Assembly (NCBI GenBank): GCA_012522185.1
Contig: JAAYKY010000009.1
Span: forward strand, 62,001-126,000
Direction: 5' to 3'
Length of the DNA: 64,000 bases
DNA from: Flavobacteriaceae bacterium
GTDB lineage: Bacteria > Bacteroidota > Bacteroidia > Flavobacteriales > Weeksellaceae
Positions 35,315 to 45,848 of this stretch are shown here, piece after piece. The notes beneath the pieces are model-generated. The model searched no databases. It worked only from the letters and a program-made list of their open reading frames with translations, and had not been told where the DNA came from. The position numbers were made by a program, and so were the translations under genes. Numbering within the stretch: position 1 is the first letter of the stretch; each line of letters begins with the position of its first letter.

Positions 35315-36805
35315 TCAATACTCAATCTTCTTCTGATAAAATTCGTCTTTTTGTGTAGTTCTTTCCACCGGATATTTCTCAGTAAAACATCCGAAACAAT
35401 GATTGGTGGAACCAAGAATTTCAATCAGATTGGGAACCGATAAAAAGTCCAGACTGTCCACACCGAGATAATTAACCAGTTCTTCCGGCGTCATATTGGC
35501 CGAAATCAAATCTTTTTTTGTCGGCATATCAATTCCCAAAAAACAAGGCGCAATGATCGGCGGAGAAGCACTTCTGAAATGAATTTCCTTTGCGCCGGCT
35601 TCTTTCAAAATTTTGACCAATAATTTACTCGTCGTTCCCCGAACGATGGAATCATCCAAAATCACCAAGCGTTTTCCTTTGATTTTATTGGCAATCGGAT
35701 TTAATTTCAAATTCACAATCCGCTCGCGCATTTCCTGCGAAGGAACGATAAACGAACGGCTCATGTATCGGTTTTTGACCAAAATCGGCTCAAACGGAAT
35801 ACCCGAAGCTTCGGAAAATCCGATTGCCGAAGGCACACCGGAATCGGGAACACCAATGACCACATCGGCTTCCACAGGCGATTGTTCAAATAATTTTCGT
35901 CCGCTTTCTACCCGTAAACCATAAATATCGGTTCCTTGAATGGTAGAGTCGGGACGTGCAAAATAAATGTATTCAAATGCGCAAATTCTATTTTTGGAAG
36001 CTTGTTCGAGCGGATAGGAGTGAAGCCCGTTTTCATCCGCTACTACAATTTCTCCCGGTTCTACATCCCGCAGGAATTCCGCTCCCACGGCATCCAATGC
36101 ACAGGTTTCCGAACTGAAAACATAAGTGTCCTCACCAATTTTTCCAATCGACAACGGCCGGATTCCATTCGGATCGCGGAAAGCAGCCAATGAATTTTTG
36201 GTTAATAATAAAATGGAATAAGCACCGCGAATATCTTTCAATCCTTTCTGAATCGCTTCCTGAACTGTTAAATCCGAATATTTTTGAATCGAACGCAAAA
36301 TCACTTCGGTATCCGAAGTCGCCAGAAAAGGCAAACCTTCTTTGATTAATTCTTCTTTTAATTCGTCGGTTTCAATGACGTTTCCGTTGTGGGCAATCGA
36401 AAAATGCGGTTTCCCAAAATAATTGACCGCATAAAGCGGCTGAATATTTTTGGAACTTCCGCCTCCGGCTGTGGTATATCGGGTATGACCAATCGCAGCG
36501 TTTCCCTGAAAATCTTCGATTTCTTCGATTTGTTTGAAAACATCCAGCACCAAACCGGTGGATTTGTAGGTTTTGATAACGCTGTCTTTCAAAACCGAAA
36601 CACCCGCTGCTTCCTGTCCGCGGTGCTGCAAAGCAAACATCCCAAATTGAGCCAAAGAGAAAGTGTCGATGTTATGAGGCGAATAAATCCCAAAAACACC
36701 ACATTCTTCTTCCATACTGTCCAGCGAATCATTAAACATCTTTTTCAGATGGTTTCTCTGATAGAACTGAGTGGGGATTTTTACTGTTTTCGTACAGGTT
36801 TTCAT
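35315..36805 (-). CDS. purF: Amidophosphoribosyltransferase
   Basis: First step of purine synthesis: PRPP plus glutamine to phosphoribosylamine. 496 residues from the first ATG. The catalytic Cys of the N-terminal glutaminase is in EEECGVFGIYS (residue 35), so a 34-residue propeptide would be removed; a start at 36739 would give a 12-residue propeptide like that of Bacillus and may be the real one. PRPP site VILDDSIVRGTTSK near 370-385. Last of the purL-purC-purF series. Its 3' end is duplicated at 34100. Confidence 0.94.
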   Translation of the reverse strand: MKTCTKTVKIPTQFYQRNHLKKMFNDSLDSMEEECGVFGIYSPHNIDTFSLAQFGMFALQHRGQEAAGVSVLKDSVIKTYKSTGLVLDVFKQIEEIEDFQGNAAIGHTRYTTAGGGSSKNIQPLYAVNYFGKPHFSIAHNGNVIETDELKEELIKEGLPFLATSDTEVILRSIQKYSDLTVQEAIQKGLKDIRGAYSILLLTKNSLAAFRDPNGIRPLSIGKIGEDTYVFSSETCALDAVGAEFLRDVEPGEIVVADENGLHSYPLEQASKNRICAFEYIYFARPDSTIQGTDIYGLRVESGRKLFEQSPVEADVVIGVPDSGVPSAIGFSEASGIPFEPILVKNRYMSRSFIVPSQEMRERIVNLKLNPIANKIKGKRLVILDDSIVRGTTSKLLVKILKEAGAKEIHFRSASPPIIAPCFLGIDMPTKKDLISANMTPEELVNYLGVDSLDFLSVPNLIEILGSTNHCFGCFTEKYPVERTTQKDEFYQKKIEY

Positions 36806-36870: not shown

Positions 36871-37626
36871 CTATTTTATGGCTTCAACCAATCGGTTATA
36901 AACTTCGTGATACGCTTCAGAAACTTCTCCCAAATCTCTTCTGAAACGGTCTTTGTCCAATTTTTTCAAAGTGTCTTTGTCCCACAAACGACAAGTATCC
37001 GGACTGATTTCGTCGGCCAAAATGATGTTTCCTTCGGAATCTTTTCCAAATTCGATTTTAAAATCAACCAGAATCAAATTGGCTTTCATGAACAATTCTT
37101 TCAAAGCTTCATTGATTTTATCGGTCATTTCGTACATCAATTTCAATTCTTCATAAGTTGCTGCGCCCAATAAAACGGCGTGATGGTCATTGATCAAAGG
37201 ATCTCCCAATTCATCTTTTTTATAACAAATATCAAAAATCGTTACCGGCGATTTTGCTCCTTCTTCCAGCCCCAAACGTTGTGCCATCGAGCCGGCTACA
37301 TAATTGCGAACCACCATTTCCAAAGGAATGATATCTACTTTTTTGACCAATTGTTCACGATCGTTCAAGGTTTCGATGTAATGCGTGGGAATTCCCTTTT
37401 GGATTAAATATTCAAAAATTAAAGTCGAAATTTTATTGTTCATTTCGCCTTTGTCGGCAACGGTTCCGCGTTTTTGTGCATTGAATGCAGTCGCATCGTC
37501 TTTGTAATAAACGATGACCAAATCCGGATCCTCAGTGGAATAAACCTGTTTGGCTTTTCCTTCGTAGATAAAATCTTTCTTGCGAGGTTCGAAATTCGAA
37601 GTTCGAAATTCGTTATTATTTTCCAT
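36871..37626 (-). CDS. purC: SAICAR synthetase
   Basis: Step eight of purine synthesis (CAIR plus aspartate). 251 residues with [45 protein letters not shown] and [20 protein letters not shown], all typical. The first 17 residues ([17 protein letters not shown]) are an extension absent from usual PurC, which starts just before the YEGKAK strand. They are encoded by the end of the S23 gene C and the 3' heptamer arm. The ATG overlaps the S23 ORF by 11 bases. Confidence 0.94.
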
Positions 37627-38044
37627 TTAATTTCGTTTGTAATTTATAATTCATTTTTTGAATGTCTTCAATGAGTTGAGTGATTTCGTTCAAATCATTT
37701 TGATTGATATAACCTTGTCGGTTCGATATGATTAATTGAATATCAAGTTCTAATGTGGAGCCGTTCGAATAGGATAAAAAATTCTGAAATTGAGAATTAG
37801 AATTTCTACCTGCGCCCCCTGCGATGTTCGATGGAATAGATACTGCTGACCTTCTGACTTGATTGGTTAGTCCATAAATCTCTTCTTTTGGAAAATTCTT
37901 GGTTAAAGAATAAACCATATCAACTAAATCCATTGATTTTTGCCAAATGTGTAAATTTTTGTAGTAACTCATAATTTTAATTTTTAGGTTTATATTGAAT
38001 TAAATTTACAAATTCCATCAACGAACTTCGAATTTCGAGCTTCG
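37583..38044 (-). mobile_element. S23-type element C with inverted CG-heptamer arms
   Basis: On the plus strand the left array is CGAGGTT, CGAAATT, CGAAGTT, CGAAATT, CGTTATT (37583-37617) and the right array CGAACTT, CGAATTT, CGAGCTT from 38022. They share a 17-base inverted match (TCGAAATTCGAAGTTCG) in the same 7-base phase. The right array ends at 38044, touching the purL stop codon (38045-38047). The left array lies inside the purC coding sequence. The S23-type gene lies between, co-directional with pur genes. Confidence 0.65.
37616..37972 (-). CDS. Four-helix-bundle protein, S23/IVP family (copy C)
   Basis: 118 residues related to copies A and [40 protein letters not shown] (Gly in place of the usual Glu in IAEG) and [20 protein letters not shown]. 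It starts 50 bases inside the 5' arm and its stop is within the 3' arm region. The last codons (AAATGGAAAATAA) also contain the purC start. Confidence 0.88.
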
Positions 38045-41000: not shown

Positions 41001-41749
41001 TAATAATCAAAAGTTTTCTGTAAGGTTTGTTGAAACTGATTTTCAAATTTCACATCGGTGATTTCCGTTTCAAAAGTGGTATGACGACAATGGTCGGACC
41101 AATAAGTGTCGAGGACTTTTAATTCGGTTTCGGTGGGATTTCTGTCGATGGATTTGAAATAATTTTGAATGAATTCCAAATCGTCCATTCCCATGGAAAA
41201 TCCGAAGTCTTTATGAACTTCTTCCAATTGATTTGTATCGAAATCAATAAATCCGCCCATAATAAGTACCGGTTTGATTTCTGTTTTTTCGTGGATTTTT
41301 AATTCGTTCAGATTTTTTTCACGCGCCTCAATCGGATTGATTAGATAATTTTTCACCTTATTTAAATCCGTTTCTGAAATATTTTCAAAAACATATAAAA
41401 ATCCGGTTTTGACTTCGGGTTCTCTAAAACCTAATAACTGCAAACATTGATCGGCCGAGTCGGCGCGCTGGTCGTATTGGCCGGGGAGAGGTTCAGTCGC
41501 GAAATTCGAAGTTCGAGTTTCGAACTTCTCCAAAATTTCATCTAAATTATGGTAAACAACATCGGTCACCGGATCAGCAAAAACCTGAAAAAGGGATTGT
41601 TCCAGTTGATTTTCTGTGATTTCAAAAAGGTCATAAATAACGAAAACCTTGCACGCAATTCCGGGAACAAGGTTCTGTAATTCTTTGGTGACTTTCTTGC
41701 TGTGAATGTCAAACTGAGGTTTTTTCTGAATAAAAATTCGTTTATTCAT
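38045..41749 (-). CDS. purL: Phosphoribosylformylglycinamidine synthase
   Basis: Large single-chain FGAM synthase of 1234 residues (step four of purine synthesis). The N-terminal PurS-like part is followed by the LPGQYDQRADSADQCLQLLG motif, two AIRS-like halves (WSDHCRHTTF near 225, IGGKDSMSGSY near 765) and the glutaminase domain with Cys in LGICNGFQGL near residue 1076. Two low-complexity insertions come from heptamer repeats: ETRTSNFA (77-84) and QNPKPKTQNAKP (about 962-973, between synthetase and glutaminase). Its leader holds a purine riboswitch. Confidence 0.95.
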   Translation of the reverse strand: MNKRIFIQKKPQFDIHSKKVTKELQNLVPGIACKVFVIYDLFEITENQLEQSLFQVFADPVTDVVYHNLDEILEKFETRTSNFATEPLPGQYDQRADSADQCLQLLGFREPEVKTGFLYVFENISETDLNKVKNYLINPIEAREKNLNELKIHEKTEIKPVLIMGGFIDFDTNQLEEVHKDFGFSMGMDDLEFIQNYFKSIDRNPTETELKVLDTYWSDHCRHTTFETEITDVKFENQFQQTLQKTFDYYLSLRREMGISKPIRLMDMATIMGKHLSKSGKVKNIDISEEINACSIVVPIDVDGVEEEWLLQFKNETHNHPTEVEPFGGASTCVGGAIRDPLSGRAYVFQAMRITGSANPLEKIEDTLPGKLPQRKITKEAANGYSSYGNQIGLATTFVKEIYDEGYKAKRMEVGFVAGAVKRNWVRREEPVAGDKVILLGGRTGRDGVGGATGSSKTHDGQNLEELSSEVQKGNAIVERKIQRLFRNKEVLALIKKCNDFGAGGVSVAIGEIARGVNINLDTLLLKYTGLNGTELALSESQERMAVVVESADVEKFIEFAKIENLEATVVADVTTEETMTMWWRGDKIVELDRKFLDTNGVRKQTKAEVQDGENLNPFQTKDFSKESFIELLKELNHASQKGMVEMFDNNIGRSTVLNSFGGKTMDSPEDVSVQKFPTDGFTNSVSMASFGFNPEISRWSPYHGAYFAVMESVAKIVAGGGNFKEIRLTFQEYFERLRNEAERWGKPFAALLGSIEAQKQLEIPAIGGKDSMSGSYQDIDVPPTLISFAVAPNKSYKIKSATLQKTNSKLSVFIPELNDEFLFDELNLKEIFECIQSNNSNIISAATVKSGGIAETLANMAFGNEIGFELNADLDLMKYYPGAIIVEHSEELNIPDEIKSKYHPLGNTNSSKEFNFNGISISISEAKQAWKSTFSELFPYEVKGRKAKDKSDFVLQNIKLQNPKPKTQNAKPKVFIPAFPGTNSEYDSAKAFQKEGAEAEIIVFKNLSEKDIEETVEAYSKAIDQAQIFFIPGGFSAADEPDGSGKFIATVLRNEKIRESVHRLLERDGLVLGICNGFQGLIKSGLLPYGEIRPLEEDTPTLTFNEIGRHISQLAKVKVNDSHSPWLNGMSGKEFWIPVSHGEGRFMADEKNLKVLFEQNQIATQFIDLEGNIAEEMPYNPNGSVLGIEGITSPCGKVFGRMGHPERFEEGLFQNIPGIEVMNIFKNGVKYFA
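38832..38866. repeat. Five 7-bp repeats inside purL (interdomain linker)
   Basis: GGTTTTG, CGTTCTG, CGTTTTG, GGTTTTG, GGTTTTG in exact 7-base steps. On the coding strand they give QNPKPKTQNAKP in the linker before the glutaminase domain. Confidence 0.85.
41500..41527. repeat. Four CG-phased heptamers inside purL
   Basis: CGAAATT, CGAAGTT, CGAGTTT, CGAACTT in exact 7-base steps; GAAGTTCGA-GTT-TCGAACTTC within it is a perfect hairpin. The first 17 bases equal those in element C. On the coding strand they encode RTSNF, as in PurC. Confidence 0.85.
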
Positions 41750-41771
41750 AGAGTTTTAAATCTTTTTATAA

Positions 41772-41817
41772 CTACAAATGAAGTAAACGAAAATGAATTC
41801 ATAAACTTCATTTGTAG
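41772..41817 (-). promoter_or_regulatory. Alternative hairpin of the purL riboswitch (expression platform)
   Basis: On the minus strand CTACAAATGAAGT (the P1 3' strand) can pair with a second ACTTCATTTGTAG downstream (41784-41772), a 13-bp perfect stem that is mutually exclusive with aptamer helix P1. The downstream copy mimics the P1 5' strand. The purL ATG is 22 bases further; the hairpin is not followed by a clear T-run, so the mode (termination or translation) is open. Confidence 0.6.
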
Positions 41818-41878
41818 AGGAAAATTAACGGTTTTCCGTAGAAACGCCCGACCTTATTACGGGTTTATACAAATGAAA
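41806..41878 (-). promoter_or_regulatory. Purine (guanine-type) riboswitch aptamer upstream of purL
   Basis: Read on the minus strand: P1 is an 11-bp helix TTTCATTTGTA/TACAAATGAAG. J1/2 is TAA, P2 CCCG/CGGG closes loop AATAAGG, J2/3 is GTTTCTAC, P3 is GGAAAA/TTTTCC closing CCGTTAA, and J3/1 is TC then TA. The known aptamer has P1, TATAA, loop GATATGG, GTTTCTACC, loop CCGTAAA and CTA, so the match is base for base in the core. The C in J3/1 (position 74) predicts guanine specificity. Position 73 is T instead of the usual A. Confidence 0.85.
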
Positions 41879-41955
41879 TGAGCCATTTCGGCAATTCCGA
41901 AGTGTCATTTAATGAAAAGAACACCCAGGAAATTATTAACTTTAAAAACAAGCGA

Positions 41956-41963
41956 CAAATTTA
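41956..41963 (-). promoter_or_regulatory. -7 element TAAATTTG for purL
   Basis: Minus-strand TAnnTTTG match about 75 bases upstream of the aptamer, giving a leader of about 200 bases; no clear -33 box. Confidence 0.35.
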
Positions 41964-41998
41964 CGATTAATTTTCGTGATCTTATGCCTAAAAAAACA

Positions 41999-42394
41999 TT
42001 AAAAATTTCGAATTATAACTTCTTGGTAAACCAATGTGTTGTCTTTTGTAAAATACACACAAGTCATTTTGTTTAAATCCACTCTCCATCGTTCAATTCC
42101 CGCATCTGCGCAGTTTTTGCAAAAGCTAAGGTAATCGGTTTCTCCTTTTTTATGGATGGTCAGGTATTTTTTAAATTTCCCTGGATTGTATTCGGGCGCA
42201 ATTTCCAGATCGGTGTACATCGAAGGCATTTGCAGGTTTTCATTTCTTTCGTTGAAATAAGTAGTGGTATTGTCCCTTAAGGAAGTCTCAATTTTTGTTA
42301 CTCCCAAATTTTTGATTTCTCGAATGAAATTGGGGAAATCCGTTCCTGTTTTAACTTTTGAAAGTGCTGCCTGTATAGGCTCAATTGTAAACAT
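41999..42394 (-). CDS. DUF1398 family protein
   Basis: 131 residues: IEPIQAALSKVKTGTDFPNF, LGVTKIETSLRDNTTTYFNE, YLTIHKKGETDYLSFCKNCA and DAGIERWRVDLNKMTCVYFT match the DUF1398 (YbcV-like) family. Function unknown. It starts 3 bases after the purB stop, on the same strand, so it is probably co-transcribed with purB. Confidence 0.85.
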   Translation of the reverse strand: MFTIEPIQAALSKVKTGTDFPNFIREIKNLGVTKIETSLRDNTTTYFNERNENLQMPSMYTDLEIAPEYNPGKFKKYLTIHKKGETDYLSFCKNCADAGIERWRVDLNKMTCVYFTKDNTLVYQEVIIRNF

Positions 42395-42397
42395 AAT

Positions 42398-43834
42398 TTA
42401 AACTTTTAAATCTGTTTTCAGACCGATTAAATCTTTATTTTTATTCAAAATGGGTTGTACATGTTCTGTTAAAAATTCTTCTGTCTGGATGGGAGCAAAA
42501 CCTATGAAATTCATCGGATCCAAAACTTGTTGAAGTTTTTCTTTGTCGATGTTAAATCTTTCGTCTGCCAAAATTCTTTCTACCAAATCGTTTGGTTTTC
42601 CTTCCATTTTTACTTGTTTTGCTGCTTCCATACTGTGTTCACGGATTAATTCGTGTAATTCCTGACGGTCGCCACCGTTTTTCACTCCTTCCATGATGAT
42701 GTATTCCGTCGCCATAAAGGGAAGTTCTTCCTTGATGCGTTTTTCGATGATTTTAGGATAAACGACCATACCGTCCAAAACATTGTTCCAAATAATCAAA
42801 ATCGCATCGATGGCCAGAAATGCTTGCGGAATGCTCAGTCGTTTGTTGGCCGAGTCATCCAAAGTCCTTTCAAACCATTGCGTGGAAGCCACCATCGCGG
42901 GACTCGAAGCCAATGAAATCACAAACTTTGCCAAAGCTGAAATTCGCTCGCTTCGCATCGGATTTCGTTTGTAAGCCATGGCCGATGAACCGATTTGCGA
43001 TTTTTCAAAAGGTTCTTCGATTTCTTTTAAATTCTGAAGCAATCTTAAATCATTTGTGAATTTATGTGCGGATTGTGCGATGTTGGAAAGTGTCGCCAAA
43101 ACTTCTGCATCGATTTTCCGGTCGTAAGTCTGTCCGGTTACGCCCAAAACTTTATTAAATCCGAATTGTGCTGAAAGACGTTTGTCCAGTTCTTTTACTT
43201 TTTCGTAATCTCCGTCAAATAATTCCTTGAAACTCGCAGCTGTTCCGGTGGTTCCTTTTACTCCACGGAAACGCAAAGTTTCAATTCGGAATTCCAATTC
43301 TTCAAAATCCAACAAAACCGATTGTAACCAAAGTGTCGCTCTTTTCCCGACGGTGGTTAATTGTGCAGGCTGAAAGTGGGTGAACCCCAAAGTGGGTAAA
43401 TCTTTGTATTCCAATGCGAAATCATTCAGTCCTTTGATGACGTTGACCAGTTTTTTCTTCACAATCAAAAGTCCTTCTCGAATTTGAATTAAATCGGTAT
43501 TATCACCCACAAAAGCGGAAGTGGCACCGAGGTGAATAATCGGACGGGCTTTCGGAGTGACATCACCCAAAGTGTGAACGTGCGCCATCACATCGTGACG
43601 GAATTCTTTTTCATATTTGGCGGCGGTTTCGTAATCGATGTTGTGAATATTGTCACGAATTTCCTGTAGTTGTTCATCGGAAATATCCAATCCCAAATCT
43701 TTCTGGATTTCAGCTAAGGAAAGCCAAAGTTTTCTCCAAGTTGAAAATTTCATATCAGGAGAGAAGTTATAAAGCATTTCATCGCTACTGTAACGGGATT
43801 CGAGAGGGTTTTGATATTTGGCGTTTGAACTCAT
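42398..43834 (-). CDS. purB: Adenylosuccinate lyase
   Basis: 478 residues; catalyses two steps, SAICAR to AICAR and adenylosuccinate to AMP. The superfamily signature GSSAMAYKRNPMRSERI is intact, with TLGFTHFQPAQLTTVGKRAT and the HVHTLGDVTPKARPIIHLGA region containing catalytic His. Length is standard. A TAATTTTG -7 element (43851-43858, minus) lies 17 bases upstream of the ATG. Confidence 0.95.
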   Translation of the reverse strand: MSSNAKYQNPLESRYSSDEMLYNFSPDMKFSTWRKLWLSLAEIQKDLGLDISDEQLQEIRDNIHNIDYETAAKYEKEFRHDVMAHVHTLGDVTPKARPIIHLGATSAFVGDNTDLIQIREGLLIVKKKLVNVIKGLNDFALEYKDLPTLGFTHFQPAQLTTVGKRATLWLQSVLLDFEELEFRIETLRFRGVKGTTGTAASFKELFDGDYEKVKELDKRLSAQFGFNKVLGVTGQTYDRKIDAEVLATLSNIAQSAHKFTNDLRLLQNLKEIEEPFEKSQIGSSAMAYKRNPMRSERISALAKFVISLASSPAMVASTQWFERTLDDSANKRLSIPQAFLAIDAILIIWNNVLDGMVVYPKIIEKRIKEELPFMATEYIIMEGVKNGGDRQELHELIREHSMEAAKQVKMEGKPNDLVERILADERFNIDKEKLQQVLDPMNFIGFAPIQTEEFLTEHVQPILNKNKDLIGLKTDLKV

Positions 43835-44351: not shown

Positions 44352-45638
44352 TTAAAACAATTCCTTTCTGATGATATTCTGCGACCGATCCGGTCCGACT
44401 GAAACCAGATAAATTTCAATTCCCAAATATTCTTCAATGAAGTGAATGTATTCCTGTGCATTTTCTGGTAATTCACTGAAGGAATTGATGTTGCAAATGT
44501 CTTCCTTCCATCCGTCCAATTCCTTGTAAACCGGAGTGTATTTGTCCAGTTTGGTGGTGGAAGCCGTGAAATTATGTTTGATTTCGCCGTCTTCGGTTTG
44601 GTAATCGGTACAAACTTTAATTTTATCAAATCCGCTCAAAACATCCAGTTTCGTGATGACCAAATGCGTGATTCCGTTGATGCGACAGGCATGTTTCAAA
44701 GCGACTAAATCCAGCCAACCACATCTTCTCGGACGACCTGTTGAAGCGCCGAATTCATGTCCGACTTTGCGGATGTGCTCTCCGACTTCATCGTCCAATT
44801 CCGTCGGGAAAGGACCGTTACCTACTCTAGTGCAATAAGCTTTGGAAACCCCAATCAGATTTTTCAGTTTGGTAGGCGGAACGCCTGCACCCACACAAAC
44901 GCCACCGGTGGAAGGCGAAGACGAAGTTACGTATGGATAAGTTCCATAATCGATGTCCAGCATCAAGGCTTGAGCACCTTCAAATAATACATTTTTTCCT
45001 TCGTCAATTGCATCGTTTACTTCCACGACTGCATCGATGATTCTGTGTTTTATTTTTTCGCCGTAGGCTAAATAATCATTGTAAATTTCATCAAAATCCA
45101 ATGCCGGTTTATCAAATAATTTTTCAAACAAAGCATTTTTGATTTTCAGATTGATTTCCAATTTTTCTCTTAAAACTTCAGGGTTTAATAGATCAATCGC
45201 ACGGATGCCGACTCTTGCGACTTTGTCTTCATAGCAAGGCCCAATTCCGCGTTTGGTAGTCCCGATAGAATCTTTTCCAGCAGCTTCTTCGCGGTACCCA
45301 TCCAGTAAAACATGGTAAGGCATGATGATGTGTGCGCGACGGTCAATGAAAATATGACCACTACTGATCCCACGACTTTCCAAAGTGGCTACTTCATCCA
45401 GAAAACTTTGAGGGTTGACAACTACACCACTTCCGATGATGCATTTCCCTTGTGATTGCAAAACGCCTGACGGCAGCAGGTGCAATACAAATTTATCCTC
45501 GCCTACATAAACCGTATGGCCGGCATTGTTACCGCCTTGATAGCGAACTACATAATCTGATTTAGCTGAAAGTACATCGGTGATTTTCCCTTTTCCTTCG
45601 TCTCCGAACTGAAGACCTACTACAACGTATGTGGACAT
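44352..45638 (-). CDS. purA: Adenylosuccinate synthetase
   Basis: 428 residues from ATG 45636-45638; an extension to 45776 would add an unrelated hydrophobic stretch and is rejected. GTP-dependent conversion of IMP to adenylosuccinate. MSTYVVVGLQFGDEGKGKIT starts the protein; then YQGGNNAGHTVYVG, GTTKRGIGPCYEDKVARVGI and STGRPRRCGWLDLVA. Not linked directly to the other pur genes by strand order but in the same neighbourhood. Confidence 0.95.
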   Translation of the reverse strand: MSTYVVVGLQFGDEGKGKITDVLSAKSDYVVRYQGGNNAGHTVYVGEDKFVLHLLPSGVLQSQGKCIIGSGVVVNPQSFLDEVATLESRGISSGHIFIDRRAHIIMPYHVLLDGYREEAAGKDSIGTTKRGIGPCYEDKVARVGIRAIDLLNPEVLREKLEINLKIKNALFEKLFDKPALDFDEIYNDYLAYGEKIKHRIIDAVVEVNDAIDEGKNVLFEGAQALMLDIDYGTYPYVTSSSPSTGGVCVGAGVPPTKLKNLIGVSKAYCTRVGNGPFPTELDDEVGEHIRKVGHEFGASTGRPRRCGWLDLVALKHACRINGITHLVITKLDVLSGFDKIKVCTDYQTEDGEIKHNFTASTTKLDKYTPVYKELDGWKEDICNINSFSELPENAQEYIHFIEEYLGIEIYLVSVGPDRSQNIIRKELF

Positions 45639-45687
45639 TTTCTGAATTGAAATTTTTAGCGCAAAAAAAAGCTTGCTTGTTACCGCA

Positions 45688-45719
45688 CAAAAATAAAGGA
45701 TTAAGACGGGGAAGGCAAA
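45688..45719 (-). promoter_or_regulatory. purA promoter TTTG-N20-TATTTTTG
   Basis: Minus strand: TTTG (45719-45716) and TATTTTTG (45695-45688), spaced by 20 bases, 49 bases upstream of the purA ATG. Confidence 0.6.
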
Positions 45720-45848
45720 TAAAACAATCAACAAAAAGAGGAAGTTTTCAAGAATTCCGAAATCGTTTAGTATCAATCTAAATTAAGCATAAACAAAAAA
45801 ATAAAATCTTAAATGCTTAATTTTAAGGGTATTTAAAAATCATTCATT

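Follow-up and report, generated by a model that had tools for sequence, protein, structure and literature searches.

A guanine-type purine riboswitch upstream of purL in a Bacteroidota genome, with a predicted start-masking platform

The window, the whole 64,000-nucleotide stretch of DNA analysed here, carries an aptamer in the leader of purL. Covariance search and comparison of related sequences support its assignment as a guanine-type purine riboswitch. From sequence and folding, we propose, with a probability of about three in four, that guanine or hypoxanthine acts through this riboswitch to repress purL translation by masking the purL start. The riboswitch class is known; within the accessible part of the literature searched, the host group and the expression platform are new. 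The features are collected in Table 1.

Table 1. Riboswitch elements, linker segments, and genes of the purL locus in the window
Feature	Position	Strand	Basis or remark
Guanine-type purine riboswitch aptamer	41795..41892	minus	RF00167 match; covariation in relatives
P1 5' strand, ATTTCATTTGTA	41868..41879	minus	12 pairs (one G-U) with 41816-41805
P1 3' strand and C74, CTACAAATGAAGT	41805..41817	minus	Partner is the P1 5' strand or 41784-41772
L2, AATAAGG	41858-41852	minus	Sequence
J2/3, GTTTCTAC, with U47 and U51	41838..41845	minus	Sequence and Rfam alignment
P3, GGAAAA/TTTTCC, 6 pairs	41837-41832/41824-41819	minus	Sequence
L3, CCGTTAA	41831-41825	minus	Sequence
J3/1, U73 (41818) and C74 (41817)	41817..41818	minus	Rfam alignment; C74 marks guanine type
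Anti-P1, copy of P1 5' strand, ACTTCATTTGTAG	41772..41784	minus	13-bp pairing; shuffles
Anti-start segment, TTCGTTTACTTCAT, overlaps anti-P1	41778..41791	minus	Complementary to purL start
purL start, ATGAATAAACGAA / AUGAAUAAACGAA	41737..41749	minus	Target of anti-start segment
purL, single-chain FGAM synthetase, 1234 aa	38045..41749	minus	PF13507, PF02769, PF18072
S23 / 23S rRNA intervening-sequence protein gene, purL-purC interval	37616..37972	minus	PF05635, E 1.2e-37
purC	36871..37626	minus	PF01259
purF	35315..36805	minus	GATase_6/7 and Pribosyltran
Possible Bacteroidota -7 promoter element, TAAATTTG	41956..41963	minus	Similar motif at similar place in several relatives, by eye; no statistics

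Class of the aptamer and gene context

The covariance model RF00167 (purine riboswitch) matches the minus strand (41892-41795) over its full length with 62.8 bits (E 1.5e-8; gathering cut-off 37). The match is not a chance one. It is the sole Rfam match at the gathering cut-off in the 64-kb window, and a single RF00167 match is found in the genome at E 0.001. The original prediction, made from the letters of the window, placed a guanine-type purine riboswitch upstream of purL and named an RF00167 search and a comparison of relatives' leaders as checks. The score above the cut-off, the core bases, the compensatory changes in P1, P2, and P3, and the gene context in related genera all bear it out. 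The core elements that it listed are present on the minus strand, including both seven-base loops, with the correction that P1 counts 12 pairs, not 11. In the Rfam alignment, the guanine-type core bases U22 (J1/2), U51, and C74 are present; we take the position numbers, including U47 and U51 in J2/3, to follow xpt numbering. U22, U51, and C74 are named as ligand contacts in the available part of an earlier study (PMC9295807).

Covariation is assessed in 27 aptamers, including that of the window, picked from 36 with near-duplicates left out and two U74 loci of g11 included. Changes on both sides occur in 18 of 23 pairs (72 cells); by stem, they affect 6/9 pairs of P1, 6/6 of P2, and 6/6 of P3. 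The pairing cells amount to 91.1%, compared with a shuffled mean of 79.4, and none of five measures is reached by shuffles (0/500). Both GG-CC pairs of the L2–L3 contact are present and invariant in the 27 sequences, and thus provide no covariation evidence.

Judged from these features, the ligand is probably guanine or hypoxanthine. It is highly improbable that the aptamer senses another purine such as 2'-deoxyguanosine, adenine, or xanthine. Such a reading could appeal to four f24 genomes that have RF00167 matches with a different J2/3, and to the occurrence of 2'-dG-II riboswitches in Bacteroidetes (PMC8872408, in the part available). However, the window's aptamer combines J2/3 GTTTCTAC with U51, C74 in J3/1, and U22 in J1/2, and the gene context is de novo purine synthesis. 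The adenine-type U74 is absent, with C74 at 41817 in its place; among the 36 aptamers, U74 is found solely at the g11 loci L024 and L030. The altered J2/3 of the 2'-dG-II type is absent too, the f24 loci serving as a stand-in for the class consensus.

The f24 loci (L031-L035) comprise five RF00167 matches in four genomes, of which G287 has two. J2/3 reads GC.TCCACC in the four loci read out (L033 was not extracted), a form that we take to resemble 2'-dG-II riboswitches. By eye, the loci precede secreted nuclease-like genes. The 2'-dG-II class shares with the window's aptamer the scaffold and the presence in Bacteroidetes (PMC8872408, same portion), whereas the f24 loci, 2'-dG-II-like by resemblance, differ in J2/3 (in four of five) and in their downstream genes. 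In g11, both matching genomes carry an RF00167 aptamer with U74, of the adenine type (L165:5381-5478, minus strand, G011; L024:1501-1598). The G011 aptamer lies ~150 nt upstream of an EamA-family transporter gene (L165:4242-5231, PF00892), and the two together are a candidate for an adenine-regulated exporter. The G040 contig ends shortly after the U74 aptamer.

The original prediction regarded the T at position 73 as unusual, which does not hold. Position 73 is A in 47, T in 31, and G in 6 of at least 84 motif-passing matches listed from other genomes, and U73 is dropped as a special feature. The set was chosen by P1 letters with position 73 left free, and is mostly Firmicutes by 80 listed names; 36 further pattern matches without both loop motifs, among the matches listed, were set aside. 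The pattern scan yields lower bounds, names, and examples, not a census, and possibly leaves out the window's own genome. Four of eleven pattern-match loci read out (L040, L041, L091, and L103) show no loop motifs on inspection by eye and are dismissed as chance.

The identities predicted for the genes stand as well: Pfam identifies purL, the S23 gene, and purC, and purF is recognized by domains of two kinds. Four relatives (L161, L162, L163, and L167; proteins named by eye) share the order purL-purC-purF. Compared with these four, the S23 gene between purL and purC is found in the window only; their purL-purC intervals contain no ORF of ≥100 aa. The S23 gene overlaps the purC start by 11 bases. 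A DUF1398 protein gene (41999-42394) separates purB (42398-43834) from the riboswitch, and purA is positioned further upstream (44352-45776). Thus, adenylate-branch genes lie upstream of the riboswitch. We liken TAAATTTG to what we take to be the -7 consensus, TAnnTTTG.

The linker and its two partners

According to sequence and folding, the linker segment 41791-41772 has two mutually exclusive uses. In the first, which rivals P1, CTACAAATGAAGT (41817-41805) pairs with ACTTCATTTGTAG (41784-41772) over 13 bp. This alternative helix had been predicted and proves exact; its energy is reached by 0/300 shuffles of the downstream stretch. As isolated duplexes, the 13-bp alternative has -15.7 kcal/mol and P1 has -10.8 kcal/mol, and the mean pairing probability of the P1 3' strand with the linker is 0.99 without constraint. 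In the second use, the partners are TTCGTTTACTTCAT (41791-41778) and the purL start AUGAAUAAACGAA, which form a helix with one bulge. The mutually exclusive helices agree with the 'natural switch' of the original prediction, to which the capacity of the same segment to mask the purL start adds a mechanism.

Without ligand, the P1 3' strand would hold the linker segment in the 13-bp helix, and the purL start would be comparatively free (ON). With ligand, P1 would be locked and the linker segment released; the released segment would then pair with ~13 nucleotides of AUGAAUAAACGAA and cover the purL start codon (OFF). The masked start would stop the ribosome, and purC and purF may follow the repression of purL, as the original prediction suggested for S23, purC, and purF. 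As stated in the accessible part of one report, Bacteroidetes are without Shine-Dalgarno sites, and low structure around the start accompanies efficient initiation in F. johnsoniae (PMC6847099). With no Shine-Dalgarno site in Bacteroidota mRNAs to cover, repression of this kind has to hide the start region itself.

In the folding calculations, enforced P1 and P3 stand in for bound ligand, and the tertiary L2–L3 contact lies outside the model. The pairing probability between start and linker is 0.88 with the aptamer enforced, compared with 0.10 in the free state. Upon enforcement, the unpaired probability of the purL AUG falls from 0.41 to 0.02, and that of the region -2 to +12 from 0.42 to 0.10. 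The free start is 42% open, for which a weak local hairpin is responsible. The bound state costs 3.9 kcal/mol in folding, plausibly a size that ligand binding could pay. The direction predicted by folding is that ligand lowers purL expression; for RNA so rich in A and U, the output of folding programs is uncertain.

The 13-bp hairpin ends 22 nt before the AUG and could act in the opposite direction, blocking the ribosome until guanine relieves the block. Of three helices compared, that of the hairpin has the highest stability (-15.7 kcal/mol as a duplex), and it is close to the start; the adenine riboswitch of Vibrio add is an ON switch (PMC8191784, part available). Nevertheless, activation of a biosynthesis gene by its own end product makes little sense, and the anti-start helix, although kept in most relatives tested, would go unexplained. 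We consider an ON switch very unlikely.

Control could also be exerted on transcription by the same guanine riboswitch, if the anti-start helix and UUUUUAUU (purL codons 5-7) formed a ligand-bound terminator. A U-rich stretch does lie immediately 3' of the helix in the window's genus, and in the sister group Empedobacter/Weeksella/Vaginella a T-run of ≥6 stands right after P1 in 20/20 aptamers. However, the anti-start stem is rich in A/U and closes a long loop. The U-stretch is broken in 4/6 Apibacter starts and is ≤3 in the three Chitinophagaceae starts, and a scan with loops of 3-8 finds no terminator-like site at 41500-42100. We judge such a terminator unlikely at the window's locus. The 13-bp hairpin was also tried as a terminator and rejected, with no T-run behind it and no site from the same scan (41500-42100, loops 3-8).

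The start–linker duplex of translational masking has -11.0 kcal/mol at the window's purL. Among 52 ORFs in the window, purL is the sole one with a duplex of ≤-10 and a fully paired AUG; five of the 52, including purL, reach -11 kcal/mol somewhere near the start. By duplex energy alone, the locus is reached by 62/1000 shuffles, which is too weak singly. As single-locus duplex energies are too weak, we rely on ensembles, sister contrasts, and clade swaps.

Start masking and U-tract forms among relatives

At the cut-off, RF00167 is found in 5/6 genomes of the genus, 30/197 genomes and 5/33 genera of the family sample, 3/395 of the order sample, 1/395 of the class sample, and 5/395 of the phylum sample, each count including the window's genome; there is overlap between the samples, and the larger ones had stricter filters. 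The four other phylum-sample genomes belong to family f24. In Chitinophagaceae, RF00167 occurs in 3/195 family-sample genomes and 1/298 order-sample genomes; both counts include the L100 genome, which was found by pattern and scores 67.6 bits. For nine Weeksellaceae genomes, from nine genera, that have no purL riboswitch, a search of the purL locus at E ≤ 10 gives no RF00167 among the 8 matches listed. The patchiness in the family sample might suggest a functionless relic. This is scarcely credible, given that the riboswitch is kept in most genomes of the genus, that its stems covary and the switch helices are kept, and that PurL, too, has no match in two Apibacter genomes that lack the riboswitch.

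The first gene downstream is purL at 5 loci of g1, 6 of Apibacter, 14 of Empedobacter, and 3 of Chitinophagaceae, for both tandem copies in Vaginella, and for one of the two aptamers per Weeksella genome. We test all 14 leaders found to precede purL without a U-tract (5 g1, 6 Apibacter, and 3 Chitinophagaceae) and, as a contrast set, 5 of the 17 purL-proximal U-tract leaders. Each leader is compared with 120 dinucleotide-shuffled linkers; seeds were unfixed, so that exact counts vary on repeat. Bound-state start–linker pairing is reached by ≤8/120 shuffles in 12/14 leaders, the misses being L011 (55) and L155 (14), whereas the five U-tract leaders are reached by 115, 100, 63, 111, and 21 of 120. 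A combined score, devised after the pattern was seen, multiplies free-state pairing of the P1 3' strand with the linker by bound-state pairing of the start with the linker. It is reached by ≤1/120 in 11/14 leaders, with L006 (36), L155 (15), and L011 (4) as misses, and by 44, 30, 10, 56, and 1 of 120 in the U-tract leaders. Start masking is thus not above shuffles in 4/5 U-tract leaders tested; the fifth, Weeksella L159, scores like a masking leader (combined score 1/120).

With the aptamer enforced, the region -2 to +12 closes by >0.05 in 11/14 leaders; the fit is poor in L006 (0.08 to 0.09), L155 (0.38 to 0.35), and L157 (0.28 to 0.29). The helix predicted for Apibacter lies mostly over +4 to +13. 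No closing of the AUG is predicted there, its unpaired probability passing from 0.70 to 0.83 in L004, 0.22 to 0.73 in L007, 0.34 to 0.36 in L008, 0.11 to 0.22 in L010, and 0.41 to 0.43 in L011. Duplex energy alone is modest in relatives (L155, 398/1000 shuffles; L156, 400/1000). The anti-P1 copy is reached by ≤13/300 shuffles in 12/14 leaders, with L004 (62) and L008 (63) as misses.

The purL start reads AUGAAUAAACGAA in the window's genus, AUGAACAAAAGAA in Apibacter (one AUGGACAAAAGAA), and UUGGACACACGC, UUGAAUACAAGA, and UUGAACACACGA in Chitinophagaceae. The purL of the three Chitinophagaceae genomes (L155-L157) appears to begin with UUG, that of the window's genus with AUG. Pairing is strongest between linkers and starts of the same clade, with means of -9.7, -9.9, and -8.9 kcal/mol, compared with -4.9 to -7.1 kcal/mol for foreign starts. 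A foreign-clade start costs 2.6 to 4.9 kcal/mol on average, which is reached by 0/10,000 label permutations in a test that counts 14 related sequences, really three clades, as separate. Both-side changes in the start helix occur at +6 (U-A or U-G versus C-G), +8 (A-U versus C-G), and +10 (C-G versus A-U), where the partner letters were located by folding and their pairing is not independent evidence. Position +6 is unpaired in L002, L009, and L012, and the start helix is kept in part only in L012 and L011. As read from sequence and predicted folds, Apibacter and three Chitinophagaceae genomes share the start-masking arrangement, with changes on one strand matched by changes on the other.

A run of 6-8 T follows the first seven P1 3' bases after 0-4 nt in 20/20 aptamers of Empedobacter (14, many with near-identical leaders) and Weeksella/Vaginella (6). 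The 14 other aptamers have no such run there (the run of 6 in L157 lies at position 9). The U-tract versions share the window's aptamer and, in 18/20, the purL context, one of these being the upstream tandem copy; they differ from the window's version in the T-run of ≥6 right after P1 and in start masking, which does not exceed shuffles in 4/5 tested. The likeliest reading is that ligand-stabilised P1 itself would serve as the terminator stem in these forms. An anti-P1 copy is also present in 7/20 U-tract aptamers at ≤13/300 shuffles, where it might have an antiterminator role.

Two further arrangements were seen. In Vaginella (L158, G028), two complete guanine-type aptamers (1718-1815 and 1501-1598) stand in tandem before one purL, 217 nt from start to start, with a T-run behind each. 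In G049 (L166:3946-4045, plus strand) and similarly in G064 (L019), a second guanine-type aptamer is followed by a T-run. The L166 copy lies after an Mpl-like gene (by eye) and faces the 3' end of a histidine kinase gene (L166:4143-5045, minus strand); it is perhaps a purine-dependent terminator between convergent genes.

PurL history and relation to known riboswitches

The single-chain PurL of three Chitinophagaceae is 50-52% identical to that of the window. In one of the three, G862, PurL is split over two contigs, and the N-terminal piece has 40% identity to the window's protein. Four searched Chitinophagaceae without the riboswitch give 27-31% matches over a shorter subunit and short separate second matches, and three f2 genomes give PurL matches of 27-29%. 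In a PurL tree with 24 rows, of which 12 have a purL riboswitch, the PurL proteins with the riboswitch group into three lineages, whose order the tree does not settle: Chitinophagaceae (98/98), g1 with Empedobacter/Weeksella/Vaginella (99/100), and Apibacter beside nine genera without the riboswitch (85/93).

Predicted start masking occurs in all three lineages, and the U-tract form is nested in one. Therefore, the tree suggests that start masking is ancestral and the U-tract derived, with one loss in the nine genera; repeated gain instead of ancestral start masking is possible. The data also suggest that Chitinophagaceae received purL along with its riboswitch. Overall, we lean slightly towards a Bacteroidota lineage of a two-partner switch without Shine-Dalgarno site that was ancestral to a clade of large PurL proteins, moved with purL to Chitinophagaceae, whose relatives have split PurL, and was rebuilt as a P1-terminator in Empedobacter/Weeksella/Vaginella.

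Guanine sensors of the RF00167 kind are best known from Firmicutes. With guanine-I riboswitches such as Bacillus subtilis xpt, the window's riboswitch shares the three-way junction, the L2–L3 contact, U22/U51/C74, a downstream purine gene, and the predicted ligand-OFF logic. It differs from xpt in its Bacteroidota host, in that no terminator is found (41500-42100, loops 3-8), and in a platform predicted to mask the start. According to the available text on Vibrio vulnificus add, that purine aptamer likewise acts on translation by hiding the AUG, together with the Shine-Dalgarno sequence, when ligand is absent (PMC8191784). However, add senses adenine and is ON with ligand, whereas the window's aptamer has C74, is predicted to be OFF with ligand, and is expected to lack a Shine-Dalgarno sequence.

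In its accessible part, a survey of 255 genomes reports purine riboswitches as ubiquitous in Firmicutes, with one or two proteobacterial lineages in addition, and the Bacteroidota group visible there is Bacteroidaceae (PMC3766115). A 2007 survey, as far as available, reports them in few groups (PMC2258182). In the open-licence literature, taken without figures and supplements, we find no account of purL being preceded by a guanine riboswitch in Bacteroidota; annotation of genomes with Rfam may already have flagged such sites. The same partial literature yields little on riboswitches that govern translation in the absence of Shine-Dalgarno pairing by the ribosome.

The locus is a small system open to experiment, and synonymous codons of its target gene appear to be matched to the switch. 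As sister lineages carry the same aptamer and gene with a probable terminator-type platform, the change of platform can be studied directly. The finding extends the range of guanine riboswitches to the de novo purine pathway of Weeksellaceae and of some Chitinophagaceae, and start masking would suit bacteria that lack the usual mark at the start of translation.
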